Below are positions 1 through 51,473 of a DNA stretch of 64,000 bases, piece after piece. The notes below the pieces were generated by a model that saw only the letters and a program-made list of their open reading frames with translations, made no database searches and was not told the origin of the DNA. How positions within the stretch are numbered: position 1 is the stretch's first letter; every line of letters begins with the position of its first letter. The translations under genes and the position numbers were made by a program. This DNA comes from Pontiella desulfatans (lineage in GTDB: Bacteria > Verrucomicrobiota > Kiritimatiellia > Kiritimatiellales > Pontiellaceae): positions 248,001 through 312,000 of the forward strand of contig NZ_CAAHFG010000001.1 in assembly GCF_900890425.1 (NCBI RefSeq), given 5' to 3'.

Positions 1-771
1 GGTGAACAGTTGCTTGGTTTTTCCGAACTCTACCAGCACGCCTTCATACATGAAAGCCGTGAGGTCGGAGACGCGCGCGGCCTGCTGCATGTTGTGGGTG
101 ACGATGATGATGGTGTATTGCTTGCGGAGCTGGCCGATCAAGTCCTCGATCTTGGCGGTGGCCTTCGGGTCGAGCGCGGAGGTCGGCTCGTCCATCAGCA
201 GGATCTCGGGTTTGATGGCCAGGGCGCGGGCGATGCAGAGGCGCTGCTGCTGCCCGCCCGACATGCCGAGGGCATTGGCCTGGAGCCGATCCTTCACCTC
301 GTTCCAGATGGCCGCCTTGCGCAGGCTCTGCTCGACGATCTCGCCCAGCTCCTGCTTGTTCTTCACCCCCTGCAGGCGCGGGCCGTAGGCCACATTGTCG
401 AAAATGGATTTCGGGAACACATTGGGCTTCTGGAACACCATGCCAACCCGGGCGCGCAGGGTAACCACATCGATGTTCTTCGCGTAGATGTTGTGCCCAT
501 CGAAGATCATTTCGCCGCTGGCGCTAGTGGAGGGGATCAGGTCGTTCATGCGGTTGATCGAGCGCAGCAGCGTGCTCTTGCCGCAGCCACTGGGGCCGAT
601 CATGGCGGTAACCCTTTTTTTCGGCACCTTCATGCTCACTTTGCGGACGGCCTCGAAGTCGCCGTAGAACAGGGAAAAATCCTTGGCCTCGATATGCGTT
701 TCGCGCACTTTGTGGTCGTCGTCGTGGTTGGCGAACGTGTCGATCTTCTTCATGGTGATTTCTTCGGTCAT
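1..771 (-). CDS. pstB: phosphate ABC transporter ATP-binding protein PstB (3' end off window)
   Basis: This is the cytoplasmic ATPase that powers high-affinity phosphate uptake by the PstSCAB transporter. I read 257 codons from the ATG at 771, and the frame is still open at base 1, so only the C-terminus is missing. Visible motifs in order are the Walker A loop GPSGCGKST, the Q-loop in [12 protein letters not shown], the ABC signature [15 protein letters not shown], Walker [14 protein letters not shown] and the switch histidine in IIIVTHNM. About 20 polar residues precede the conserved core. It lies 31 bp downstream of pstA and is the last visible gene of pstC-pstA-pstB. A phoU gene could follow outside the window. 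Confidence 0.96.
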
Positions 772-802
772 ATTGGCCTCTAACGAGTAATTCGTAATGT
801 TC

Positions 803-2311
803 CTATCCACGGAGTTTCTTTGAAATACGCGCGCGCATCAGGATGGCGAACAGGTTCAGGAGCAGCACGATGGCCACCAGGGTGAACACCATGCCGTATT
901 GCACGTGGCGGATTTCGTCGACCGCCTCGTGCTCGGTGCACAGGTTGTAGATGTTCCAGGGCAGGGCGGGGGTCGGTTGGCTCAGGGTCTCCCAGATTTT
1001 GAGCGGGGCGCCCACGCTGACGGCCGCGGTAAAGATGATTGGCGCGGTTTCACCGGCCGCGCGGCCCATGCTGATGACGATGCCGGTCAGGATGCCGGGG
1101 AGGGCCGCGGGCAGGATGATGGTCATCACGGTGTGCCAGCGTCCGGCGCCGAGACCAAGGGCGGCTTCCTTGTAGGCGCGCGGCACGGCCAGGATCGCCT
1201 CTTCCGAGGAGCGGATGATGGTTGGCAGGATCAGCAGCGAAAGCGTCAACGACCCGGCCAACACACTCTTGGAGTCGGACACCTGGATCGTATTCAAAAA
1301 GAAGGCGAGGCCGAACAGGCCAAAGACAATGCTGGGTACGCCGGCCAGCGTGCTGATGCAGATGCGCAGGAAGCTGACCAGACGGCCTTCCTTGGCATAT
1401 TCGCAGAGATAGATGGCGGCGACCACGCCCATGGGGACGGCGAAAAGCATGGCTCCGAGCGTGAGGTAGATCGTGCCCAGCACCTCCGGCCAGATGCCGC
1501 CGAAAATGTGCGAGTCCTTCGATTTGTCGGTAATGAACTGCCAGTAGAGGGTGGTCTTTGGCTTCATCATCTCGCCGATGTGTTCCTCGAGGTAGGGGAA
1601 GAACGGCTCCAGCGTGGTGCCGGTGAACTGGTCGGCGCGCGGCTTTTCAACCAGAACGCCCATTGCGTCGGCATTGGAATAGTCCCACTCCTCGGAATAG
1701 AGCACCTCGTGCAGCTTAACCAAGGTGCGGTCCCAGCGCGTCTGGCCATATTGCTGCCGAAGCAGCACCGGGGTGCGCTGGCCGGGGAAGGGTCCCAGCA
1801 ATTCGCTCATGGCATCCTTCACGGCTTCGAAGGGGGCGTTGCGCGTCTCGTCGAGTTCCTGGATTTGTTCCTTCAGCGCCTTGGCTTCATCCTTGAGCCG
1901 ATCCTCTTCGGCTTCCAGCTTTTCGGCCTCTTCGGCCTTGCCTTCCTTCTTAAGTGCCCGGGCCTGGGTTTTCAGCTCCTTGGCTCGTTCTTTCCTGGCG
2001 TCCATGCCGGCTTCCAAGGAGGCCTCGAGTTCGCGGGTCTCGGCCTCGAACGCCTCCAGCATCTGGTAGGCGGGCGCGCGCGCGGCGGCAATCGCGGCCG
2101 ATTCCTGGTTGAATTGGTCCGGGTCTCCGCGGTCGAACTGTTCGAGCATCACGCGCCGGTGCTCGATGGTGCCCTTGAAAACGAAGGCCTTGGATCCGCG
2201 CCAGACGATGGGCGACAGGATCAGCAATAGCGCAACACCCATCACGGCAATGGCAATCAGGCCGACTCCGGAGAAGGCTTTGTCGAGGAGTTTTCGAGTC
2301 TCTAGGCGCAT
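803..2311 (-). CDS. pstA: phosphate ABC transporter permease PstA with a large coiled-coil insertion
   Basis: This is one of the two inner-membrane permease subunits of the Pst transporter. The C-terminal half (from about residue 275) is a normal PstA permease with several membrane segments and the loop that contacts the ATPase ([13 protein letters not shown]). After the first membrane segment (about residues 15-36) comes an insertion of roughly 220 residues. Its core (about 85-155) is very rich in Glu, Lys, Ala and Leu and should form a coiled coil. At 502 residues the protein is far longer than the roughly 280-300 usual for PstA. The insertion lies between membrane segments 1 and 2 and probably faces the periplasm. 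It starts 2 bp after pstC, so the two are translationally linked. Confidence 0.93.
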
Positions 2312-2313
2312 GG

Positions 2314-3462
2314 CTATTTCCCGAGCTTCTTGCGTGAGCGCTTGACGATGATTTCGCTGGCGAGGTTCATGATGAACGAGAAGGCGAGCAGGCAGAACGC
2401 CATGGCGAAGAGGACGTGGAAACGGGAGGAACCGGTCACGTGGTCGGCCTCGCCCATGTCGCCGGCGATGGTGGCGGTGAGCGTGCGGATGGGTTGGAGC
2501 ATGTTGTAGATCGGGTCCGGCAGGCGCGCGGCGTTGCCCGAGGCCATCCAGACCACCATGGTTTCGCCAATGGCGCGCATGACGCCCAGGATGACGGCGG
2601 CGAGGATGCCGCTGATGGAGGCGGGAATGATGGTTTTGATGATGGTTTCGGCGCGGGTGGCGCCGAGGGCATAGGACCCTTCGCGCAGCTCGCGGCCGGC
2701 CGCCTGCAGGGCGTCTTCCGAAACACTCACCACCGTGGGCAGCGCCATGATTCCTAGAATGACCGATACGTTCAGGGCGTTGGTTCCGGAGCTGATTTCG
2801 ATGCCGCTGAGCTGGGAGGAGAGGCGATAGAGGAACAGGAGGGCGAGGGCGCCGAGTGCGGAAAAGACGATTGCGCCGGCAACCTTTGGATTCACCTTGT
2901 TGCGCAGTTTGTCGGTTGCCATGTCGCCTATCACCACCACCAGCAGGGCAACGATGGGCCCCAGCACAATCCAGATTCCGGCCGAAAGGATCGCGCCGCC
3001 GTGGTTTTGCAACAGCGGGGCAAAGACCACCAGCGCAAAGAAGCCATAGGCAACCGAGGGGATTGCCGCCAGCACTTCGATGACCGGTTTAACAATTTGC
3101 CGGACATTGAAGGGAAGCAGGTCGCTCAGGCAGACCGCGGCGGCAATGCCCAGCGGAACGGCCACCACCACGGCGCCGAGGGTCACCAGCGCGGTTCCCA
3201 TGAAAATGGGCAGCGCGCCGAACTCGGCGGGCTTGCCGGATGGATACCAGCGTGTGCTGGTGAAGAATTCCTGGAAACCCTCCAGTTTGAAGAAGGGAAT
3301 GGCGTCTTTCAGGATGAAGTAAAAGATGAAGAACACCGCGAAGGTGGAGAGCGAGGTGATCAGGAACAGGACGCCCTGTCCAAACATTCCGGCCAGCCGT
3401 TGGCGAAAGCTCGCCGCATCGCTCAACATTAGGCTTTTATTTGCTGTTTCGCTCATAGACAC
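2314..3462 (-). CDS. pstC: phosphate ABC transporter permease PstC
   Basis: This is the second membrane subunit of the Pst phosphate importer, partner of PstA. It has a hydrophobic segment at about residues 30-52, multiple later membrane spans and the conserved permease loop AAGRELREGSYALGATRAET. At 382 residues it is somewhat longer than typical PstC, with an extra loop around residues 205-230. Two starts are possible: a GTG at 3462, six bases after AAGGG, or an ATG at 3456. I list the GTG because of its spacing. Three Pho-box-like repeats lie 40-70 bp upstream, so pstCAB appears to have its own promoter separate from pstS. Confidence 0.93.
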   Translation of the reverse strand: MSMSETANKSLMLSDAASFRQRLAGMFGQGVLFLITSLSTFAVFFIFYFILKDAIPFFKLEGFQEFFTSTRWYPSGKPAEFGALPIFMGTALVTLGAVVVAVPLGIAAAVCLSDLLPFNVRQIVKPVIEVLAAIPSVAYGFFALVVFAPLLQNHGGAILSAGIWIVLGPIVALLVVVIGDMATDKLRNKVNPKVAGAIVFSALGALALLFLYRLSSQLSGIEISSGTNALNVSVILGIMALPTVVSVSEDALQAAGRELREGSYALGATRAETIIKTIIPASISGILAAVILGVMRAIGETMVVWMASGNAARLPDPIYNMLQPIRTLTATIAGDMGEADHVTGSSRFHVLFAMAFCLLAFSFIMNLASEIIVKRSRKKLGK

Positions 3463-3500
3463 ACGAATCCCTTAAGAATGGGTGCAGATTGGGGGGGTAA

Positions 3501-3531
3501 TGTTAGCGAAAGATTAGGGGAAGATTAAGAA
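3501..3531 (-). promoter_or_regulatory. Pho-box-like triple repeat upstream of pstC
   Basis: On the minus strand three hexamers of the CTAACA/CTAATC type follow each other with an exact 11-bp period (TTAG or TTAA cores on the plus strand at 3503, 3514 and 3525). An 11-bp period of direct repeats is the known layout of PhoB boxes. The hexamer differs from the E. coli CTGTCA. Confidence 0.65.
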
Positions 3532-3560
3532 GCTGTGTTGAGTGGGGGACGTGTTTTTAC

Positions 3561-3590
3561 AAAAAAAGGCGCGACCCGGAGATCACGCCT
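3561..3590 (-). terminator. Rho-independent terminator after pstS
   Basis: Read on the minus strand, an 8-bp stem (AGGCGTGA pairing with TCGCGCCT, one G-U) closes an 8-nt loop and is followed by seven T residues. It lies 22 bp past the pstS stop and separates pstS from pstC. Confidence 0.85.
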
Positions 3591-3611
3591 CAATCGTCAC
3601 GCCTCACGTTT

Positions 3612-4430
3612 TTAGTATGCGGTCACCGGAACGAACCCGATTTCCTCAACCATTTCCTGGCCGTCCTCGGTCAGGTGGATGGTCACGAACTGGTAGACCG
3701 CGCTGCCCAGTTTCGGATAGGTGTTGGTGTAGAGGAACAGCGGGCGGGCAATCGGGTATTCGCCGGTCTGCACGGTTTCGGCGGACGGGTAGATGCCGTT
3801 GATCTTGAGCGCCTTGGTGGTTTTGTCGACAAACCCGAGGCCGGCATAGCCGATGGCGGCCGGGGTGCTTTGCACGCGCTGGCGGATGGCGCCGTTGGAG
3901 CCGACATATTCGCAGTTTTCATGGATCTTCTGTTTGCTCATGACCAGATTTTCGAAGGTTTCGTAGGTGCCCGAATTGGTGTCGCGCGAGATCGTCACGA
4001 TCGCCTTGTCGGGCCCGCCGACCTCCTTCCAGTTGCTGATCTTGCCGAGGTAGATGTTGCGAACCTGTTCAATGGTCAAATCCTGCACGGGGTTGGACGG
4101 ATGGACGAGGATCGGCAGGCCGTCGAGGGCCACCACGTGGGCAACCGGCTGGACGCCTTTTTCGGCGGCGGCCTTGAATTCGGTCTCCTTCATCGGGCGC
4201 GACATCGCGGCGACATCGCAGGTGCTGTTGACCATGCCCTTCGCGCCGTTCCCGCTGCCGGACTCGGATACGGTGATGTTCACGTCGGGATTGGCCGACA
4301 TGTAGTATTCGGCAAATGCCTTGGCGATGGGGCCCACGGTGGTGGAGCCGTCGATGACGATCTTGTCTGCGGCACCGGCCATGCCGGCAACGGCGATCGC
4401 CGTGGTGATTGCGAGGATCTGTTTCTTCAT
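3612..4430 (-). CDS. pstS: periplasmic phosphate-binding protein PstS
   Basis: This is the periplasmic receptor that captures phosphate and delivers it to PstC/PstA. The 272-residue protein starts with a clear signal peptide (MKKQILAITTAIAVAGMAGA, cleavage near residue 21). The mature part has the PstS family hallmarks: IDGSTTVGPIAKAFAE at the N-terminus, SESGSGNGAKG, the phosphate-contact segment ISRDTNSGTYETFEN and IGYAGLGFV. The start is supported by the ribosome-binding site AGGAGAG, spaced seven bases from the ATG. It is transcribed alone, with its own Pho-box-like repeats upstream and a terminator downstream, which allows higher expression than the membrane subunits. Confidence 0.95.
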   Translation of the reverse strand: MKKQILAITTAIAVAGMAGAADKIVIDGSTTVGPIAKAFAEYYMSANPDVNITVSESGSGNGAKGMVNSTCDVAAMSRPMKETEFKAAAEKGVQPVAHVVALDGLPILVHPSNPVQDLTIEQVRNIYLGKISNWKEVGGPDKAIVTISRDTNSGTYETFENLVMSKQKIHENCEYVGSNGAIRQRVQSTPAAIGYAGLGFVDKTTKALKINGIYPSAETVQTGEYPIARPLFLYTNTYPKLGSAVYQFVTIHLTEDGQEMVEEIGFVPVTAY

Positions 4431-4501
4431 TTGAATCTCTCCTGGTTTGTTATGGTTCCCTAACAGTTTTTTTTATAACCGCGGTTAAATTCGGCGATTG
4501 C

Positions 4502-4532
4502 TGTTAGGAAAGCATTAGGGTGAGATTAAGAA
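4502..4532 (-). promoter_or_regulatory. Pho-box-like triple repeat upstream of pstS
   Basis: Three repeats with an exact 11-bp period (TTAG/TTAA cores on the plus strand at 4504, 4515 and 4526) read on the minus strand as CTTAAT, CCTAAT and CCTAAC. A possible -10 (TTTAAC or TTATAA) follows about 10-20 bases downstream. The arrangement matches the pstC box. Confidence 0.68.
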
Positions 4533-4584
4533 GTGGTGAATTCCAACGTGTTGCTCACAGGATCGACATACGGGTGGCTCTTCT

Positions 4585-5898
4585 CTATAGCCCCTTCCCC
4601 GTTGCTGACACCAGGCGGAGCTGGGCCAGGTTGTATTGGGTTGCCACGTTGAGGTAGAGCCCTTCCGCTTCGGCCAGCGCCTTGATCGACTGCAGGGCTT
4701 CCAGCGGAAGGCCCTGGTTCTCGAACACGCGTTCCAGGTTCAGGTCATAGGATTTGCGGGCGCCATCGACTGCGCGTTTGGCGAGGTCGAGGCGGCGCCG
4801 GGCACCGTTCAGCTCGGCATGCGCCAGGCGGACTTCCGCGGCAATGTCGACCCGGGTCTGTTCCTGCATGGCCTTGGCTTCTTCCATCATGGCGCGTTGT
4901 TTCCGGATATTGTTGCGGTTGCGCAGGCCGAGACTGTCGAATTGCCAGTAGACCACCCCATACAGATCGTTCCGGCGGTCGTCGTAGTCGTTGCCGGTTC
5001 CCGGGCCGCCGCCAAAATTGCCATAGCTATACCCCACCTCGACCTTGGGCAGGAAGAGACCGAATTTTTCCTGCTTCAGCCGGGCATCGGCCGCGGCGAG
5101 CTCGGCATGGTTGCGTCCGATCTCCGGGCGGTCATCCAACGCCTGGGCCACCAGGCTTTGCAAATCCGCGCCGGCGTCCAGCAGGGCCAGCGGGGCAATC
5201 ATGCGATCGGCCGGAACCAACTGCACGGGGTTGTCGAGCCGCAACAGGCGGGCCAGCTTGATTCCCGCGGCCTCGGTGCGTTCCATGGCCAGTTCGACCT
5301 TCTGCTGCTGAATGAGCGATTCCACCTCGGCGCGTTCGGCGTCGGCCTGCAGGCCTTCGCCGCTCGACGAGAAGTCGGCGGTCTGCTTGGCCAACTTATC
5401 CGCATGGTCGGCGGAGAGCTTGGCCACCTCCACCTCGCGGGTGGAGCGCACGAGTTCATAGTAGGCTGAGGCCACTTCGAGCATCACGCGTAGCCGGGCC
5501 GACTCCTCGCCCAGCTCGGCGGCATGCAGGCGCTGCTTTGCGGCGAGGGGAGCGAAGATTGCCTCCGAAAGGTCGAGGCCCACCGAGAGGCCGGGCTGGG
5601 TCATGCCGCCCATGCCGTAGTAGCGCGCGTTGCGCTCGACGTCCATCACGTTGCCCGACGTCTCCTGCACCGCGCCGTCCTGCCACGCATAGCCCGCGCC
5701 GATCCGCAGGGTCGGAATCCACTGGTACCACGCCGCGGATTGGTCGAGCTCGGCCCGGGCCACGCGCTGCACCTCAATGGCGAGCTCGGTGTTTTTTTCA
5801 TCGGCCAACCGCAGGGCGGTCGGCAGGTCGATCAGCAGCGTTTCCGCATAGGCGGCCGCGCTGCAGGCGAGAATCAGACTGAAAAGAGCATTTTTCAT
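4585..5898 (-). CDS. TolC-family outer-membrane efflux channel
   Basis: This is the outer-membrane channel of a tripartite efflux system and the last gene of a three-gene operon with the adaptor and RND transporter upstream (18-bp gap to the RND gene). The 437-residue protein starts with a signal peptide ending near AAYA (residue 18). It is largely alpha-helical, with two repeated OEP domains (about 25-215 and 230-430) whose long Ala/Leu/Glu-rich helices would form the periplasmic tunnel. The C-terminal repeat contains QTRVDIAAEVRLAHAELN, typical of TolC-like proteins. Substrate cannot be told from sequence. Confidence 0.88.
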   Translation of the reverse strand: MKNALFSLILACSAAAYAETLLIDLPTALRLADEKNTELAIEVQRVARAELDQSAAWYQWIPTLRIGAGYAWQDGAVQETSGNVMDVERNARYYGMGGMTQPGLSVGLDLSEAIFAPLAAKQRLHAAELGEESARLRVMLEVASAYYELVRSTREVEVAKLSADHADKLAKQTADFSSSGEGLQADAERAEVESLIQQQKVELAMERTEAAGIKLARLLRLDNPVQLVPADRMIAPLALLDAGADLQSLVAQALDDRPEIGRNHAELAAADARLKQEKFGLFLPKVEVGYSYGNFGGGPGTGNDYDDRRNDLYGVVYWQFDSLGLRNRNNIRKQRAMMEEAKAMQEQTRVDIAAEVRLAHAELNGARRRLDLAKRAVDGARKSYDLNLERVFENQGLPLEALQSIKALAEAEGLYLNVATQYNLAQLRLVSATGKGL

Positions 5899-5916
5899 GG
5901 TTTCAATCTCCGGGGG

Positions 5917-8900
5917 CTAAGCGTGTTTGGGCTGGTGCTTTTTCGCCAGCGTATAGACACAGGGAACGAGGAACAGCGTCAGGATGGTGGAGGCAATCAT
6001 GCCGCCCATCATGGCCCGCGCCAGCGGAACCATTGCTTCGTTGCCGATCGAAAAGTTGAAGGCGAACGGAAGCATCGAGGCCAGCATGGTCAGCGAGGTC
6101 ATCAGGATCGGGCGCAGGCGGACGCAGGCCGCCTCGTAGGCCGCCTCGAACGGGCTATGCCCTTGGTCCATCTGCTTGTTGGCGAATTCCACCAGCAGGA
6201 TCGAGTTGTTCACCACCACGCCGATCAGCATCAGCGAGCCCATCAACGATTGGATGTTGATGTTGGTGCCCGTGGCGAACAGCGCCACCACCACCCCCGA
6301 AAGCGCCAGCGGAACGGCCAGCATGATGATCAGCGGTTCCGAGAACGAGCGGAACTGGGCCATCAGCACCAGGAAAACCAGCACCACCGCCGTAACCAGT
6401 CCGAAGCCGAGCGACGACGCGCCCTCGCGCATCGACTGCACCGGGCCGCGCAGGTTGACGGTCACGCCGTTGGGCAGCTCGATTCCCGCCAGCACCTGCT
6501 CGACGTCTTTCACAACCGAGCCGAGGTCGCGCCCTTCGACGTTCACATAGACGTCGTTGACGCGCGACATGTTGTAGTGGGCAATCTCGGCGGGAATATT
6601 CACCCGGTTGATTTCGGCCACGCTCGAAAGCGGCACGGTGGTGTGGGTGCCGTCGAGTTTGACCGGCAACGGGATGTTTTTCAGTTCTTCGATCGATTCA
6701 ATCTCGTTGTCCTCGTATTGGACGCCGATGAAGAAATCGACGCCGCCCTTGTCGATCCAGATCATCCGGGCATGGCCCAGGCTGGAGCCGTAGGCGGTCA
6801 CGACATTGCGCGCCACATCGTCCTGGGTCAGGCCATAGAGCGCGGCCTTGGCGCGGTCGACGTGGATGTCGAGCTGCGGGTAGTCGAGCGACTGCGCAAT
6901 CTGCACGTCGGCGGCACCCGGAACCTCCTTCACGGCGCGTTCGATCTTTTCGGCGGTGGCGCGGCAGGTTTCGAGCGAGCCGGCGGCAATCTGGATATCG
7001 ATCGGCGCGGCAACCCCTTCGTTCAAGGTGGCGTTGATGATGCCGCCCGTCACAAACAGGAACTTTTCATGCGGGAAGGTTTCGGCTAGCCCGGCGCGCA
7101 GCTCGCTGACATAGCGCATGACGCTCTTCCTGCGGCCCTTCTCCTGCAGGTTGATGATCAGGAACGCGGTGTCGGGGCCCGAGTTGGAGCTGAGCACTGT
7201 CGAAAAACCCGCACCTTTGCCTACCGGCATGCCGATGTTCGAGATGATCGATTTGATCTCCTCCTCCGGGATGGTCCGCTGGATGTAGGCTTCGATCTTC
7301 GCAATGATCGCTTCGGTGTTTTCCAGCCGGGTTCCCGGCGCGGTCTTGACGCGGATCTCGAACGATCCGGCATCGACCGCCGGGAACAGCTCGGTTCCCA
7401 CCTTGGGCAGCAGCAGGAATGCCGCGGCGGAAACGCCGCCGATGACGGCGATGGTGAGCCAGCGCGCCTTCATGGCTCCCGAGAGCAGCTTTTGGTAGAA
7501 GGTGGCCGGTTCGGAAATCCGCTCTTCCAGGTTGTGTTGAACCTTGGCTTTCCCGGAATCCTTCCCGAGGAAGCGCGCGCAGAAGGCGGGGGCAACCGTC
7601 ATGGCAATCACATAGGATGCGGCGATGGTCAGTACGGCGGCGGCCGCCAGCGGCAGGAACAGGAACTTGATCATGCCGGCCAGGAAGAGGGCGGGGATGA
7701 AGACCGCCAGCGTGGTGGCGATGCCTGCCAGGACGGGCATCGAAACCTCTTCGGCGCCTTCCCGGGCCGCATCGATGGCGTTTTTGCCCATCGAACGGTG
7801 GCGCATGATGTTTTCCACCACCACGATGCCGGCGTCCACCACGGTGCCGACGGCCAGGGCGAGGCCGCCGATGGTCATGACGTTGAGCGTTTCGCCGGTG
7901 AAGTAGAAGCCGAGCAAGCCGGAGAGCAGCGAGAGCGGCAGCATCAGCAGCACGGCGATCGACGGGCGCAGCTTGCGCAGGAACAGCACCACAATCAGCA
8001 CCACCAGCAGCGCGCCGAGCAGCACCTGTTTCTGCAGGCCGTCCATCGCCTGGCGGATGTAGGTGGACTGGTCGCTCACCAGCGTGATTTCGGTGGCCTC
8101 GGGAATATCGCCACGCGCCTTCATGTTGGGGACTTCGGCGGCGATGCCTTCGCGGATGCGGTCGACGACCTGCACGGTGTTTTCGCCGGGTTCGCGCAGC
8201 AGCGGGCAGTAGACCGAGCGCAGGCCGTTCACGCGGACAATGTTGTATTGCAGCGCGGCGTCATCCTTGGTGTGGCCGATATCCTTGATATGGATGGTCT
8301 GCCCGTTGCGCACGGCGATCGGCACCTCGTCGATGTCGGCCGGGGTGGGCAGGGTGTTGACGGGGTGCACCTGGTAGTCGAGCGCGCCCATCTTGACCGT
8401 GCCGCCGGCCATCACGAGGTTGGCCTTTTCCATCGCCTTGACGACGTCGTCGGCCGAGAGGTGGTGGGCGGCGAGTTTGTCGGGATCGACATAGATCATC
8501 ATCTGGCGGAACTTGCCGCCGAACGGGTGGGGGATCTGCACGCCCTGGAGTCCGCCCATCTTGTTGCGCACGGCATAGTAGCCAATCTTGTAGAGTTCGG
8601 TTTCGCTCATGCCTTCGCCGCTGATGGCCGCGAGCAGGACGGGCATGTTGCCGGGTTCGGAACGCATCGTGAACGGAACCTCGATGCCGGGCGGGAGGTG
8701 GAACAGGTCGGACATTTCATAGTTGATGATGTCGTTCATGGCCTGTCCCGGATCGGCGCCGGCCTGGAATGTGACCTTGATGAGCGCCGCGCCCGGCAGG
8801 ATGCGCGCCTCGATGGTCTCGCGCTTGCCCGCGAGGGTCAGGGCGCGCTCGACACGCGAGGAGACCGATTTTTCCATTTCGCCGGTGGGGAGGCCGGGAT

Positions 8901-20025: not shown

Positions 20026-20721
20026 CTATTCTTCTTCCTTGAAGCGGTAGCCGATTCCCCGGACGGTTTCAATGCATTTCCCGGCCGCGCCCAGTTTTTT
20101 ACGTAGACCCACAATCTGGACATCCACCGAGCGGTCGGTCACCGGATAATCGTCGCCATGGACCGCGTCCACGATCTGGTAGCGCGTAAAGACCCGGCCC
20201 GGTTGCTGGGCCAAGAGCTGGAGCACCTTGAACTCGGTAAAGGTCAGGGCAACATCGGTTCCATCGACCTCCACCTTGTGGCGCGCAACATCGATCGAAA
20301 TGCCGTGGTTGCTGATCAGCTCCTCGCTGGCGACCGACCGGTTAGCCGTAATGCGCCGCAGGGCCGCCTTGACGCGGGCCAGCAGAACCCGCGGGCTGAA
20401 CGGTTTTGTCACATAGTCGTCTGCGCCCAGCTCCAGGCCGGTCACCACATCGGCCTCCTCGCACAGGGCGGTCAGCATAATGATTGGTATGCGCTCCGTC
20501 TTCGGGTCGGCCTTGAGGCGTTTGCAAACCTCCAGCCCATCCGCCCCCGGCAGCATGATATCGAGCAGGATCAGGTCGGGTTGGAATTGTGCGGCCAAGG
20601 TTAGTGCCTCCTCGCCCGAGTCCACCACCTTCACCCGATATTTGTTGCGCTCCAGGTTGAACAACAGCAGTTCCTGGATCGGCGCTTCGTCTTCCACGAC
20701 TAAAATTTTGATCTTTTCCAT
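20026..20721 (-). CDS. phoB: phosphate-regulon response regulator PhoB-like
   Basis: This is an OmpR/PhoB-family response regulator of about 231 residues. The receiver domain (about 1-120) has the acidic pocket VVEDE, the phospho-acceptor Asp54 in LILLDIMLPGADG, and the conserved Lys in DDYVTKPFSPRVLLAR. The C-terminal winged helix (about 135-230) contains LTFTEFKVLQLLAQQPGRVF and TDRSVDVQIVGLRKKLG. An in-frame ATG lies six codons upstream; neither start has a clear ribosome-binding site, and I prefer MEKIKILVVEDE, the usual family start. It is the first gene of phoB-phoR. A possible Pho box upstream suggests self-regulation. It is the likely reader of the 11-bp repeats in this window. Confidence 0.92.
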   Translation of the reverse strand: MEKIKILVVEDEAPIQELLLFNLERNKYRVKVVDSGEEALTLAAQFQPDLILLDIMLPGADGLEVCKRLKADPKTERIPIIMLTALCEEADVVTGLELGADDYVTKPFSPRVLLARVKAALRRITANRSVASEELISNHGISIDVARHKVEVDGTDVALTFTEFKVLQLLAQQPGRVFTRYQIVDAVHGDDYPVTDRSVDVQIVGLRKKLGAAGKCIETVRGIGYRFKEEE

Positions 20722-20765
20722 GCGCCCAATGTTTCGCATTTGCCGAACGCTAACAATCCTTAAAA

Positions 20766-20785: not shown

Positions 20786-20859
20786 GTTGTTTGCTAGATG
20801 TTTAGGGAATCCGTGCGCCGGGAGCCAAAGGGGGCTGTTTCGTGGTGGGTTTTCTTCGG

Positions 20860-20901
20860 TTGTGTAATCCAGATTGACGATCGTCAATCTGGATTACACA
20901 A
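20860..20901. repeat. perfect 42-nt palindrome between phoB and the HMG-CoA reductase gene
   Basis: Twenty-one bases beginning TTGTGTAATCC run directly into their exact reverse complement with no loop, centred between 20880 and 20881. One further arm (CGG with CCG) continues on both sides after a single-T offset. It is not followed by a T-run, so it is not an ordinary terminator. It lies in a 320-bp divergent intergenic region (20722-21041) that otherwise holds only the possible phoB box and the ribosome-binding site of the next gene. Confidence 0.9.
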
Positions 20902-21041
20902 ACCGTGCAGGGTGCCGGGTTGACTTTCATGGGGGCAGGTATTAGCTTCGGTGCGGAAATGAACCAGATAAACTAAGTTTATGGAGCCTCTTGCAAAACC
21001 CTTCGAGTTTGCGAGGCAGTTTTTTGTTAGAGGAGAATATG

Positions 21042-22085
21042 ATGGAACAAGGTTCGTTTGCGCAGATCCCCATGCAATTTGTGGGCCCTTTAAGGGTTTC
21101 CGGAATCCAGCTCGAAGGCGAATACGAGGTGCCGCTGGCCACCTATGAGATTCCGCTATGGCCTTCGGTCAACCGCGGCGCCCGTGTTTCGATGAACTGC
21201 GAAGGCGGAATCAAGTGCACGGTCGTGGACGACCGGATGACCCGCTCCGTGCTTTTCGAGGCGCCCGATGCCACCGCGGCATTCCTTGCCCTGGAAAAAA
21301 TAAAGGCGGGTCTTCCTATCCTTGAAAAGGTGGTCGAAGGCACCAGCCGCTTCGCGAAGCTGATCAACATCAACGCCCAGATTGCCGGCAACCTGTTGTT
21401 TGTCCGGTTCGAGTTCACCACCGGCGATGCCTCCGGGCATAACATGTGCACCCAGGCCGCCGAGGCGCTCATGAACCATATTCTCGGAAACCATCCCGAG
21501 CTCGAATATGGCTCCATCTCCGGGAACTATTGTTCCGACAAGAAGGCCACCGCCGTCAACGGCATCCTCGGGCGCGGGAAATACGTGGTGGCCGAACTGC
21601 TCATTCCCGGAAAAATCGTCCGCCGCTATCTCAAAACCACGCCCGCAAAGGTGGTGCAGCTCAACATCCGCAAAAACCTCATCGGCACCATGCTCGCCGG
21701 TGGTTCGCGCAGCGCCAACGCCCATTTCGCCAACATGCTGCTCGGCTTCTACCTCGCAACGGGGCAGGACGCCGCCAACATTGTCGAGGGCTCCCAGGGC
21801 ATGACCCTGGCCGAGGAGCGCGACGGCGACCTCTATTTTTCCGTCACCCTGCCCAACCTCATCATGGGCACCGTCGGCAACGGCAAGGGGCTCGATTTTG
21901 TCTTGGACAACATGCGGCGCATGGGGCTGGACGAAGAGCGCGCCCCCGGCGAGAATTCAAAACGCCTCGCCTGCCTCTGCGCCGCCACCGTCCTCTGCGG
22001 CGAGCTCTCCCTCCTCGCCGCCCAGACCAACCCGGGCGAGCTCATGGACGCCCACCGCCGCATCGAGCGCGGGCAGCAGAAGTAA
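21042..22085 (+). CDS. hydroxymethylglutaryl-CoA reductase family protein
   Basis: HMG-CoA reductase makes mevalonate, the committed precursor for isoprenoids. The 347-residue protein has all four catalytic positions of the family: Glu36 in VPLATYEIPLWPSVNRG, Lys in GNYCSDKKATAVNG (about 167), Asp243 in GQDAANIVEGSQ and the C-terminal His338 in LMDAHRRIERG. The cofactor-site motif reads TTGDASGHNM, and GTVGNGKG matches the usual GTVGGGT. The second of two adjacent ATGs is chosen because AGGAG lies six bases upstream. No other mevalonate-pathway gene is adjacent. The QTNP stretch before the catalytic His differs from common family members, so it may be a diverged subgroup. Confidence 0.85.
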   Translation: MEQGSFAQIPMQFVGPLRVSGIQLEGEYEVPLATYEIPLWPSVNRGARVSMNCEGGIKCTVVDDRMTRSVLFEAPDATAAFLALEKIKAGLPILEKVVEGTSRFAKLININAQIAGNLLFVRFEFTTGDASGHNMCTQAAEALMNHILGNHPELEYGSISGNYCSDKKATAVNGILGRGKYVVAELLIPGKIVRRYLKTTPAKVVQLNIRKNLIGTMLAGGSRSANAHFANMLLGFYLATGQDAANIVEGSQGMTLAEERDGDLYFSVTLPNLIMGTVGNGKGLDFVLDNMRRMGLDEERAPGENSKRLACLCAATVLCGELSLLAAQTNPGELMDAHRRIERGQQK

Positions 22086-22222: not shown

Positions 22223-22639
22223 ATGTCACTGGAGTTAGGCAGTTTAGAAAAGGCTATCGAGGCGCTTGGCCGGTCTTTGCGCGTGATTGAAGCAGAATCG
22301 GACTCCGCCAATTCCGATCTGATTGAAACGCTGCGAGCCGGGGTCGTACAGAATTTCGAGGTGGCGTACGAGCAGTCGTGGAAAATGATGAAGCGGTGGC
22401 TGGAAGCCAATGTGGGTTCGGTCGAGGTTGATGGAGTTACCCGCCGACAACTCTTCCGGCTATGCCATGAAAGCCGGTTGATTGACGATGTTGATGCCTG
22501 GATGGGATTCCACAAGTCGCGCAACGAAACCTCACATACCTATGATGCTGAAACCGCCGACGATGTTTTTAATATGGCGAAAGTGTTCTTGCCTGCCGCA
22601 ACGGATGTGCTTTCCAGGATTGCTGCCCGTAATGATTGA
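22223..22639 (+). CDS. HEPN-domain protein, HI0074-type nucleotidyltransferase substrate-binding partner
   Basis: This 138-residue helical protein belongs to the HEPN superfamily (HI0074-like). The HEPN motif R-x4-H is visible in SRNETSHTYD near residues 96-101, and FEVAYEQSWKMMKRWLE is typical of the subfamily. It overlaps the following nucleotidyltransferase gene by 8 bp. The HEPN-MNT pair is a known toxin-antitoxin arrangement: the HEPN protein is an RNase-like toxin and the MNT partner an adenylyltransferase antitoxin that modifies it. The intact R-x4-H suggests an active toxin. Confidence 0.85.
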   Translation: MSLELGSLEKAIEALGRSLRVIEAESDSANSDLIETLRAGVVQNFEVAYEQSWKMMKRWLEANVGSVEVDGVTRRQLFRLCHESRLIDDVDAWMGFHKSRNETSHTYDAETADDVFNMAKVFLPAATDVLSRIAARND

Positions 22640-22922
22640 TCTTCCTCAAGAACAGCTGGAAACCGTAAGGCGGATTCTTTCCGGACATGTTCACGGCGCT
22701 GAAATCCGGGTGTTTGGTTCGCGGGTGCAAGGCAATGCCAAGCCCTGGTCTGATCTTGATTTGGTAATCATCGGAAACAAAAAGCTGGAACTGGGTGCCC
22801 TTGGTGACCTCCGGGAAGCATTCGAAGAGTCCGACCTCCCTATTCGCATTGATGTGTTGGACTGGCATTCCATTTCATCCGAATTCCGCAAGGTCATCCA
22901 GGCCCGGTTCGAATTGCTTTGA
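22632..22922 (+). CDS. minimal nucleotidyltransferase (MNT) antitoxin-like protein
   Basis: This is a 96-residue minimal nucleotidyltransferase. The catalytic signature is complete: the GSRVQG loop followed by the metal-binding pair in WSDLDLVI, and a third acidic residue in IRIDVLDW. The start ATG at 22632 overlaps the HEPN gene's stop, so translation is coupled. By family knowledge it would adenylylate or otherwise neutralise the HEPN toxin. Both genes have ordinary-looking composition for the region. Confidence 0.85.
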   Translation: MIDLPQEQLETVRRILSGHVHGAEIRVFGSRVQGNAKPWSDLDLVIIGNKKLELGALGDLREAFEESDLPIRIDVLDWHSISSEFRKVIQARFELL

Positions 22923-37690: not shown

Positions 37691-37751
37691 GTCTTGTGAA
37701 AAAAACGGGTTGGAGGGCGAGGTTCCATCCGAGCCGCCGCACGGTACTTTC

Positions 37752-37801
37752 ATGGAGGGGCGGACGCTGTCCGCCCAGGCGCACGGCGTGCGCCCCTCCA
37801 T
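37752..37801. repeat. three-way-junction palindrome, copy 1
   Basis: An outer stem ATGGAGG/CCTCCAT encloses two complete hairpins: GGCGGAC-GCT-GTCCGCC and GGCGCAC-GGC-GTGCGCC. The single strand would fold like a cloverleaf with two arms. The element at 39250 has the same architecture with different sequence. Confidence 0.8.
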
Positions 37802-37919
37802 CAAGGCATCGCAGGTGTTGGGATGGCCACGAAGAGGCGCATAATTCACAAGACAGGATAATGGAATGACAGGATCATTTGCTTAACCGCGAATGAACAC
37901 GAATGAACACGAATTCCCC

Positions 37920-38994: not shown

Positions 38995-39448
38995 CCAGCC
39001 ATCTGAGGTTCTCCGTCAACCCAAAAAATGATTTTCCAAGGGGCCGTTCAACCTAATGGAATCAGGGTGTTCGGCTATTGTTTTCCATAATTTTGATCCT
39101 CGTTTTTTCAAGATGCTCAAATAGTGCATTTCGTCATACGGCACCTGTTCTTTCCAGCAGCGATATAGCTAAGGGGTCCTTTGATCTTTGTGTTTGATGA
39201 GCAAAGGAGTCACCCAAGAGGCCATTTTCCGGCGGGAATGGCTTGTGCGGGAGCGGGGACATTCCTGTCCCCGGCGGGGGCAGGAAAGCCCCCGCTCCGT
39301 TGGAACCGCCCCTTGACCCCGCCCCTTCTGTTAACACAACATGAATGGCTTGCTCATTTCGGTTAAACCGGTGGTTGCTTCACTTTCCCCGATGTAAGTC
39401 GGCGAGGCTTCGACGGTCGAGGTCGCCGGAAACTGAATGGGAGAAATC
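38995..39448. other. 454-bp intergenic region with palindromes
   Basis: I see no gene. It contains a small hairpin (GCCATT...AATGGC near 39222), the second three-way palindrome at 39250 and the leader of the next gene, which ends in GGGAGA. Confidence 0.6.
39250..39298. repeat. three-way-junction palindrome, copy 2
   Basis: An outer stem GGAGC/GCTCC encloses the hairpins GGGGACA-TTCC-TGTCCCC and GGGGGC-AGGAAA-GCCCCC. The architecture and length match the element at 37752, but the sequence does not. Confidence 0.8.
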
Positions 39449-43928: not shown

Positions 43929-44606
43929 ATGTCGAAAATGAAGCTTTGCGCCCTTTGCGTTCTTTTGTGGCAGTTCGTTGTTCCTGCGCTGGCACTCGAT
44001 ACGTTGGCCTTGCTGGGGACAGGGCCATCCAAAACGCTGTTGCAGGACAAGAAGCCGATCGTTGCCGAAGCCAAGGGTTCCGTGCCGGTCAATTTCGATG
44101 CGGCACTGCACGTGCTCCGGCACCCGGATTTCATAACCCATGTCCAGGACGCCTACTGCGAACTGATCGACGAGGACGGCACGCCGGAATTCACCATCCA
44201 GAAAACCTCCACCAACACCTATTTTTACGTGAACCGCAAGGATGAGCGAACCGACATCACGGAGGTGGTGCGCCGGGAAACAGTGGAAGGTTGCTTCGAC
44301 ATCATCCTCTATTCCGCCGGCAAACGGTTCTTCGGGGCCTACCAGGCCTTGATCCATATCCAGGTGCTGAAGGAGGGCGAAAACAACTCAACCTATGTGG
44401 CGTCCGTCTACGCCTATCCCGAAAACGCCTTCAATCGTTTTTTCGCGCGCCACCTCGGTGTGGTGGAACGCTACTTCAAAAAGAAGACCGGCCACATGTC
44501 CGAGATCGTCACCACCATCACCAGCAGTTTGTGCGAAGAGGAAGTGCAGCCTGCGCTACGCGCCGGCTTTCAGCAAGGACTGCCCGCCGGGGAAGCCGGC
44601 TCGTAG
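43929..44606 (+). CDS. exported protein of unknown function with palindrome-derived ends
   Basis: This 225-residue exported protein has a signal peptide (cleavage near ALA, residue 22). The middle (about 60-195) looks like a lipid-binding-type fold, with YAYPENAFNRFFARHLGVVERYFKKKTG. I do not recognise a named family. Two parts come from palindromes. The hydrophobic signal-peptide core (residues 6-15, LCALCVLLW) is encoded by the right arm of a family-A element. The last 19 residues (from about 207) together with the stop codon come from the hairpin at 44548. It lies 23 bp after the PHP-GT gene. Confidence 0.7.
   Translation: MSKMKLCALCVLLWQFVVPALALDTLALLGTGPSKTLLQDKKPIVAEAKGSVPVNFDAALHVLRHPDFITHVQDAYCELIDEDGTPEFTIQKTSTNTYFYVNRKDERTDITEVVRRETVEGCFDIILYSAGKRFFGAYQALIHIQVLKEGENNSTYVASVYAYPENAFNRFFARHLGVVERYFKKKTGHMSEIVTTITSSLCEEEVQPALRAGFQQGLPAGEAGS
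43944..43971. repeat. half copy of a family-A palindrome inside a signal-peptide coding region
   Basis: CTTTGCGCCCTTTGCGTTC and the following TTTTGTGGC match the right arm of family A. No left arm is visible upstream, so this is a half element. Confidence 0.6.
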
Positions 44607-44615
44607 CGCAGGCTT
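44548..44615. repeat. long hairpin spanning the ends of two convergent genes
   Basis: The left arm (AGCCTGCGCTACG, then GCCGGCTT) pairs with the right arm (AAGCCGGC, then CGTAGCGCAGGCT). It covers the final codons of the plus-strand gene and reaches the stop of the minus-strand DUF3108 gene. It could act as a terminator for both. Confidence 0.85.
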
Positions 44616-45580
44616 TACTTTGCCGCCACCTTTTTCGGCGTTCCGAACGAACGGCCTTCGATGCTTTCGAGATGGCAGCGGATATAGCCAACCGGGCGTT
44701 TGTAGTTCATCCGCAGGGGAATCATCGACCAGTCGGGCGACTGGTTGGCGAGCTCGACCAGGTTTGAATCCCCGGAGGTTTCCGCCAGCTCGGAAAAGGG
44801 AACACCCCACAGGGTCATGTCGCCGGCCTTGCCTTCGGCCTCCGGTGCCAGGCTGACATCGACGCGCAACGATTCCAGTTTCTTGTTGATCGGCTTCACC
44901 TTGAACGTTTCCCTCGAGCTTGCGGCGGCAAAGGGCTTCACCTCGCCGGCCACGTTGAAATAGACGCGGAAGTCGGACGCGTGCGTCAGTTTTTCCTCCT
45001 TGCCGAGGTAGACGTTCGACATGCGCCGCAACGTGGCAGCCACGGCATTGCTTTGCTCCAGCAGCTCGTCGGCGTTTTCCAACTCCGTCTTGCGTTCGCC
45101 GGTGTGGTGGTCGAGCTTGAAATAATCGATGCCGCCATCTTTCACCGCATAGTAGTCGCGGTAGTATTCATGCTTGGGATCCTTGAAGAAGGGATTCAGG
45201 TATTCGTCGGCATCCTTGTAGTAAATCATGGTCTGGAGGCCGGGGTCCGACATGACGGCAACCATCTTGTTATGGATCGAAATGCGGCCGCGCTTGCCGG
45301 ACGCCGGATCGTCGCGTGTGTCGAAGCGGACTTCGGAATAGTAGGCCGGAACCACTTCGCCCTCATCGTTCAGCCATTCGCCTTGCACCGAGTAGGAACG
45401 CGCCTCGCCGATGCGCAGCAGCTTGAGGCCTAACACATGGTAGGAGATTTGGTAGGTGAGCTCCACACCTGCTTTGGTGGCTGTGAAACGTTCCGGGATG
45501 GCAAGGTTGGGTGCCTTGGCAACGGCCGAACTGCAAACCACTAATACGGCCCAAACAATACGCTCACATCGTCTTCGCAT
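44615..45580 (-). CDS. DUF3108-family exported protein
   Basis: This 321-residue exported protein has a signal peptide (cleavage near AVA/KAP, residue 20). DUF3108 features include ATKAGVELTYQISYHVLG, EARSYSVQG and the domain end VRVDVSLAPEAEGKAGDMTLWGVPF. DUF3108 proteins are periplasmic beta-rich proteins, sometimes linked to lipid or glycan transport. The start at 45580 (MRRRCER) is preferred because GGGG precedes it; an ATG four codons upstream is possible. It is convergent with the gene at 43929 and divergent from the acetyltransferase at 45636. Function unknown. Confidence 0.75.
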   Translation of the reverse strand: MRRRCERIVWAVLVVCSSAVAKAPNLAIPERFTATKAGVELTYQISYHVLGLKLLRIGEARSYSVQGEWLNDEGEVVPAYYSEVRFDTRDDPASGKRGRISIHNKMVAVMSDPGLQTMIYYKDADEYLNPFFKDPKHEYYRDYYAVKDGGIDYFKLDHHTGERKTELENADELLEQSNAVAATLRRMSNVYLGKEEKLTHASDFRVYFNVAGEVKPFAAASSRETFKVKPINKKLESLRVDVSLAPEAEGKAGDMTLWGVPFSELAETSGDSNLVELANQSPDWSMIPLRMNYKRPVGYIRCHLESIEGRSFGTPKKVAAK

Positions 45581-46337: not shown

Positions 46338-46343
46338 CTATGC

Positions 46344-46418
46344 AACCACGAAATACACTCAATACACGAAAGTGGTGCCGCAATTCTGGTTTTCGTGTGT
46401 TTAGTGTATTTCGTGGTT
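46344..46418. repeat. family-A intergenic palindrome
   Basis: AACCACGAAATACACTCAAT pairs imperfectly with GTGTATTTCGTGGTT. It begins 7 bp after the acetyltransferase stop. A second copy follows at 46470. Confidence 0.8.
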
Positions 46419-46469
46419 CAATATTGCTCCGGCGATTAAACATTGTGAATTCTCAGCAGGGAAGGTTTG

Positions 46470-50382: not shown

Positions 50383-50384
50383 AT

Positions 50385-50459
50385 AGCCACGAAGAGGCAC
50401 AAAAGGCACGAAGACCCATGCTTCTGGAAGTCTTGTGATTCTTGCGCCTCTTCGTGGCT
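50385..50459. repeat. family-A intergenic palindrome
   Basis: AGCCACGAAGAGGCACAAAA pairs with TTGCGCCTCTTCGTGGCT; the outer 13 bases are perfect. It fills the gap between the convergent GreA-like and tcdA genes, where it may also act as a terminator. Confidence 0.85.
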
Positions 50460-50463
50460 ATAC

Positions 50464-51267: not shown

Positions 51268-51271
51268 AAAA

Positions 51272-51333
51272 GTATGTAGTTCCGCCTTCAGGCCGTTCCT
51301 CTCGCATGGCCGCCTGAAGGCGGAACTACGTAC
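51272..51333. repeat. 22-bp-arm hairpin upstream of tcdA
   Basis: Arms of 22 bases containing GTAGTTCCGCCTTCAGGC and its complement (one mismatch) enclose an 18-nt loop. It sits immediately upstream of the tcdA start. Confidence 0.85.
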
Positions 51334-51473
51334 CTTATCCACCGGCAAAACAACGAGCTAAATTTTGCTCTAATGCGGCGACGTGCCTCGGAATCCCGCA
51401 CACCACTGCCTTCGCTCAGATCGTGATAGGAAAATAGTCGCGTTCCCAATCGGTCTGGTTGTATGTTGCGGCC

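Follow-up and report, generated by a model that had tools for sequence, protein, structure and literature searches.

Dispersed bacterial palindromes include the repetitive extragenic palindromes (REPs), which are tied to tyrosine transposases, and the CGTC REPs, which have no known partner (Di Nocera, 2013; PMC3733652). In REP/RAYT systems the gene is found between two repeats and has cognate dispersed copies elsewhere (Nunvar, 2010; PMC2817692). The CGTC REPs have a stem of 8-9 bp, a loop of 4-5 nt and an unpaired CGTC end; like the Rickettsia palindromic elements, they are dispersed, and some lie in frame in genes, including DNA repair genes (PMC3733652).

Starting from one palindrome in a 64-kb stretch of Pontiella desulfatans DNA (the window), we found a family that resembles REP/RAYT (REPtron, REPIN) in many ways. 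The two have in common (Nunvar, 2010; PMC2817692; Bertels and Rainey, 2011; PMC3116915) short, dispersed and mostly intergenic palindromes (60/67 here), a gene flanked by two copies (9/9 here) with a cognate set of repeats (64/67 here), co-evolution of gene and repeat, and repeats that are abundant where the gene is present. The REP/RAYT protein is an IS200/IS605-like tyrosine (HUH) transposase, whereas the one found here is PaaX/Cas2-like. The palindromes themselves are loopless and symmetric, with a CGATCG or CGGCCG centre and without the unpaired GTAG (or CGTC) tag at the end of the stem-loop, and the dispersed copies found per type range from few to about 10. Some types do have CGTC beside the centre, as in the CGTC REP tag, yet here it is paired within the centre; other types read CGTG or CGCA, unlike the CGTC REPs. 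The system behaves like REP/RAYT, minus its defining protein and tag.

We read the window palindrome, with a probability of about 0.7, as a solo and non-autonomous member of a mobile family that flanks, matches and is most likely spread by a PaaX/Cas2-like protein. Members of this family of mobile loopless palindromes are about 36-52 nt long, usually 42. The full unit consists of a palindrome, a paaX/cas2-like gene (~270 aa) and a second palindrome, 856 to ~1100 bp from centre to centre, and to each gene belong a palindrome sequence of its own and a set of dispersed copies.

The palindrome between phoB and the HMG-CoA reductase gene

An arm search of the window sequence located a perfect, loopless 42-nt palindrome at positions 20860-20901, just as the initial annotation had described it: two arms of 21 nt (20860-20880 and 20881-20901) that are 100% complementary, with a spacer of 0 nt and no assigned strand. 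At the base composition of the window, a 64-kb stretch should contain 2.6e-8 such palindromes, in agreement with the annotation's view that a chance origin is essentially impossible, and this is the sole perfect loopless palindrome in the window with arms of at least 14 nt. It is a member of the AATCCAGATTGACGA group and of the TTGTGTAATCC sub-type, and its centre (20878-20883), CGATCG, is the core sequence conserved across the palindrome superfamily. Outside the 42-nt arms, an imperfect extension (20857-20905) pairs as CGG...(A)CCG with a single bulged A at 20902. Judging from the window sequence and from the flank symmetry statistics of the dispersed copies given below, this extension is possibly part of a small hairpin that was present at the target before insertion.

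The position upstream of phoB was also correctly annotated. The centre of the palindrome lies ~160 bp from the start of each of two divergent neighbors, a gene for a PhoB-like response regulator on the minus strand (20026-20739), whose start may instead be the internal ATG at 20721, and the HMG-CoA reductase (HMGR) gene on the plus strand (21042-22085). Comparison with orthologous phoB regions, a check suggested in the annotation, gave a partial answer. We collected 25 related HMGR loci, and none of the 22 with at least 200 bases of upstream sequence has a palindrome of the window family; PhoB is upstream of HMGR in eight related loci, and one locus (L301) has an inverted repeat with 4 mismatches and without the centre of the window family. 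The related phoB-HMGR intergenic regions were too diverged to align, and the window copy is therefore left without a clean empty allele. By eye, a RAYT-looking gene and GC-rich repeats lie between phoB and HMGR in two relatives (L300 and L303, from genomes G012 and G013), and repeats may thus be drawn to this intergenic region.

Dispersed copies and insertions in mfd

The genome of P. desulfatans (8,658,305 bases in 6 contigs) was searched for the arm, as the annotation had advised, and the search proved productive: with as many as 3 mismatches allowed, 12 matches were found against 0 for a control pattern. They include an identical 42-mer at C2:356520-356561, with flanks unrelated to those of the window, and decayed copies at two further places; BLAST added shorter relatives of the window palindrome. 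In a wider search of relatives, matches were present in 10/58 genomes, P. desulfatans included, several of them as pairs ~856 bp apart.

A covariance model was built from 38 palindromes, types from P. desulfatans among them, so the dispersed set leans towards the types of this genome; the model gave at least 143 strand-wise matches there (150 scored out of 1,519 candidates). We collected 67 dispersed loopless palindromes, among them the window copy and its identical copy but leaving out the 18 palindromes that flank the nine PaaX/Cas2-like genes of the genome. Of these, 64 agree with one of the nine gene types in at least 15 of 19 arm positions and 53 in at least 17, whereas nine random foreign loci gave on average 6.2 and at most 14 matches at the lower level.

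According to a simple codon-usage gene caller, 28 copies lie between tandem genes, 17 between divergent and 15 between convergent ones, 6 are in genes and 1 is unclassified. The copies are therefore mostly intergenic (60/67, vs. ~16% of intergenic bases in the same loci), with no promoter preference among the 67 and a convergent excess that is not significant (p = 0.07). They also tend to lie in inverted flanks. Among the 55 copies with at most 2 mismatches, the summed run of symmetric flank beyond the arms was 88, against a mean of 22.9 and a maximum of 58 in 10,000 permutations, and 11 of the 55 had flank runs of 4 or more against 0.67 expected, as if small hairpins were the insertion targets.

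One palindrome type, that of locus L088, also occurs within a ~355-bp MITE-like repeat with inverted ends TCTTCACGGAAG/CTTCCGTGAAGA, seen at positions 1878-2235 of L223 (C4:1122813-1126854) and also in L214, L215, L216, L218 and L227. At L218, the repeat begins exactly at the palindrome. Every copy of the 355-bp repeat that we found holds the L088-type palindrome, and no empty allele of it was seen among them.

That the palindromes are mobile is shown by mfd. Among 30 genomes searched (P. desulfatans included), 27 had an Mfd match and the site was read in 16. It is empty in 12 of these, while P. desulfatans, G016, G008 and G013 carry four different palindromes there, all in frame. The gain in length is exactly 42 nt in the first three and 33 nt in G013, with no visible target duplication. 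The copy in G016 has decayed below the symmetry rule of our script; it was identified by eye and because it matches a G016 gene. In three of the four genomes the type in mfd agrees with that of a PaaX-like gene found in that very genome, at 18 (P. desulfatans), 17 (G016) and 19 (G008) of 19 positions; in G013, an 85% complete draft, we found only dispersed copies that are apparently of its mfd palindrome type.

Three further conserved genes of P. desulfatans, encoding UxaC (L243), SRAP (L219) and GH2 (L234) proteins, contain palindromes of the genome's own types in frame. These add no length relative to solved homologues, as if they had taken the place of native sequence. Simple insertion does not explain such cases, and they count against the reading that we prefer.

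PaaX/Cas2-like genes between palindromes

In relatives, palindrome pairs enclose a gene of ~270 aa with PaaX_M (Cas2-like) and PaaX_C domains. P. desulfatans encodes nine such PaaX/Cas2-like genes, and in a motif-free scan for loopless palindromes every one of the nine had a palindrome on either side, with a sequence specific to each gene. Under a rule of at most 4 mismatches in 18 arm pairs and at most 350 bp from the gene, both sides were again flanked at 9/9 loci of this genome; among 56 loci from named genomes, some of them on contigs that end at the gene, 30 were flanked on both sides, 18 on one and 8 on none. The same rule was reached by 0/10 canonical PaaX controls on plasmids on both sides (2/10 on one side) and by 1/630 first-order Markov resamples of the flanks.

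The centres of 42 palindrome pairs are 856 to 1099 bp apart. Among 104 gene-flanking palindromes, 68 have CGATCG as their centre and 27 have CGGCCG; pairing is best close to the centre and from position 10 to 18, and poorer at positions 4-9. An alignment of 38 palindromes has two-sided changes in 266/722 cells, a figure that is descriptive only, since the palindromes were chosen for their symmetry. Over 50 loci, palindrome similarity rises with the similarity of the PaaX-like proteins (Mantel r of 0.28 for the outer arms and 0.40 for the middle, reached in 0/2000 permutations).

Gene and palindrome also co-occur. Among 32 genomes, palindromes are present in 11/11 with a PaaX/Cas2-like gene vs. 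4/21 without (Fisher p 1e-5); the flanking palindromes were counted, so the 11/11 is partly automatic and the informative part is the 17/21 gene-less genomes that have no palindromes. The four genomes with palindromes and no detected gene are G012 (85% complete), G031 (98%), G034 (90%) and G037 (91%). On plasmids, the PaaX-like genes found (13 records) are all distant ones, and no PaaX-like relatives were found in IMG/VR and phage records.

The types nearest to the window copy belong to genes of related species, with 18/19 (L128) and 17/19 (L127) matching arm positions; L125, L126, L130 and L093, the last from P. desulfatans itself, reach 16/19. None of the nine PaaX-like genes of the genome carries exactly the palindrome of the window, and since the best of them reaches only 16/19, the window copy may be what remains from a gene since lost.

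The palindromes also border other genes. In one relative (L066, 3854-8837), they lie between successive genes for the PaaX/Cas2-like protein, a TOTE primase-helicase and an unknown protein, and in another (L069, 1931-9187) between PaaX/Cas2-like, TOTE primase-helicase and SNF2 helicase genes; both layouts are cassette-like. In P. desulfatans (L092, C5:20000-34000), a Wadjet-like set (JetD_C, SMC-like, DUF2397) at 136-8014 is bordered by palindromes of the type of the adjacent PaaX/Cas2-like gene. From these neighbors, the palindromes may help assemble defence-like loci.

The L066 protein matches PaaX_M (PF20803) at 78 bits against a gathering threshold of 24, and PaaX_C (PF08223) at 29.1 against 22. 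Besides these Pfam domains, the product of the flanked gene gave a weak PADLOC Cas2 match (residues 104-152 to Cas2 2-46) and no transposase match. An AlphaFold model based on 41 sequences has a mean pLDDT of 79; residues 1-90 are weak, the N-terminal part being poorly modelled (pLDDT 51-69). The best matches of the model among solved folds are PaaX (8a39) and Rv0674 (3kfw); as VIA-align covered mostly residues 101-274, the N-terminal part is barely tested in these comparisons. Over residues 103-178, the model resembles Cas2 from Cas1-Cas2 integrases, with 71 residues aligned (VIA Z 8.5, rmsd 2.4). Unlike the Cas2 of CRISPR adaptation, the protein has extra N- and C-terminal parts, and no Cas1 was recognised next to the gene in those loci that we read.

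With the PaaX repressors (TIGR02277, PDB 8a39), these proteins share the overall fold and the PaaX_M/PaaX_C domains. They differ from them in being flanked by palindromes, in an Asp at the presumed Cas2 position and in scoring far below the TIGR02277 cut-off (62.6 bits against 264.55; 9 matches in P. desulfatans, none above it). Asp111, within a YD(V/I)PE motif, is invariant in 41/41 PaaX/Cas2-like proteins, as are Gln136 and Ser138; this aspartate sits, as in Cas2, on strand one of the ferredoxin-like domain. In eight canonical PaaX proteins, position 111 is S, P, Q or Y and never Asp (0/8). From the YD motif of Cas2, together with the PADLOC match, we take Asp111 to be the Cas2 catalytic position, which would place it in an active site of the Cas2 type.

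A possible route of mobility and its alternatives

We infer that the PaaX/Cas2-like protein moves the palindrome. It would bind its palindrome, which could be in duplex form or folded into a hairpin within cruciform or single-stranded DNA; the Cas2-like domain of the protein would cut at the bound palindrome, and the hairpin would then be copied or moved into small pre-existing hairpins. More tentatively, a Cas2-fold dimer with an intact active site could be the mobilising enzyme itself, recognising and cutting its cognate hairpin and reinserting a copy, without target duplication, at other small hairpins. Among the guesses of the initial annotation, a hairpin recognised by a mobile element came nearest; the repeat is dispersed and mobile.

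Another enzyme could move the palindromes, with the PaaX-like gene as a passenger or as an antagonist that silences them. Such an enzyme would fit the relatives in which palindromes also delimit a TOTE primase-helicase, an SNF2 helicase and an unknown gene, and RAYT-like genes are present in relatives (by eye). We find this rather unlikely: the PaaX-like gene alone is tied to the palindromes at 9/9 loci of P. desulfatans, with little else between the pair, and palindrome types track the PaaX-like protein.

The strong regulator site suggested in the annotation would correspond to an operator regulon, in which the PaaX-like proteins are repressors and the palindromes are operators at their own genes and at others, phoB for example. 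In its favour, canonical PaaX acts as a repressor (from the molecule name of 8a39), the window copy has a divergent gene start on either side, and a regulon would likewise show one palindrome type per protein. Against this, the gene is followed downstream by a second palindrome at 9/9 loci, 15/67 dispersed copies are convergent and 6/67 inside genes, the in-frame copy in mfd occupies a site that is empty in relatives, and such pairs occur around 0/10 plasmid PaaX regulators. Because the palindrome flanks its gene on both sides, shows no promoter bias and has entered mfd in frame, we consider a purely regulatory role improbable; an operator role in addition to mobility is possible.

A bidirectional terminator or an RNA hairpin of the phoB/HMGR leader, the latter also raised in the annotation, would agree with a strong hairpin potential (single-stranded fold z = -5.3, equal folding in 0/200 shuffles) and with the location of some copies just downstream of genes. 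There is no T-run on either side of 20860-20901, as the annotation had noted in setting aside an intrinsic terminator, Rfam gave 0 matches for the palindrome region and six related loci, the same kind of palindrome occurs in coding and divergent positions, and the window family is absent from all 22 related HMGR loci cited above; we regard such a role as very improbable. Chimeric reads can yield perfect inverted repeats, but a fold-back assembly artefact, which the annotation had named as a refutation, is excluded for practical purposes by the identical 42-mer in unrelated flanks at C2:356520 and by matching palindromes in independently assembled relatives.

Gene by gene, these dispersed palindromes pair with a fold other than that of the tyrosine transposases, namely that of Cas2 in CRISPR adaptation. 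This gives a testable partner, nine protein/palindrome pairs in one genome as substrates, and natural insertion alleles in mfd, and it bears on the origin of Cas2 and on the in-frame entry of short palindromes into genes. Palindrome families that each match one PaaX/Cas2-like gene hint at a previously undescribed DNA-moving route. If a Cas2-fold enzyme does mobilise them, it would be the first transposition machinery on this fold and a candidate mobile-element source of Cas2, comparable to the link of Cas1 with casposons. In the open-licence literature, we found nothing joining PaaX with Cas2 or the PaaX family with perfect palindromes, and nothing on transposition in P. desulfatans. Works on PaaX and transposition, among the matches listed, appeared unrelated, as did those on Cas2 with repetitive extragenic palindromes, and for such palindromes in Verrucomicrobia only PMC3733652 was on the subject.

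The window contains two other kinds of feature. Six imperfect inverted repeats (37742-37811, 39250-39298, 44542-44620, 46339-46423, 50383-50461 and 51269-51336) differ from the loopless family in having spacers, 1-25 nt long, and the palindrome model matches none of them. At 22223-22922, two small adjacent open reading frames resemble what is presumably a HEPN/MNT (nucleotidyltransferase) toxin-antitoxin pair.
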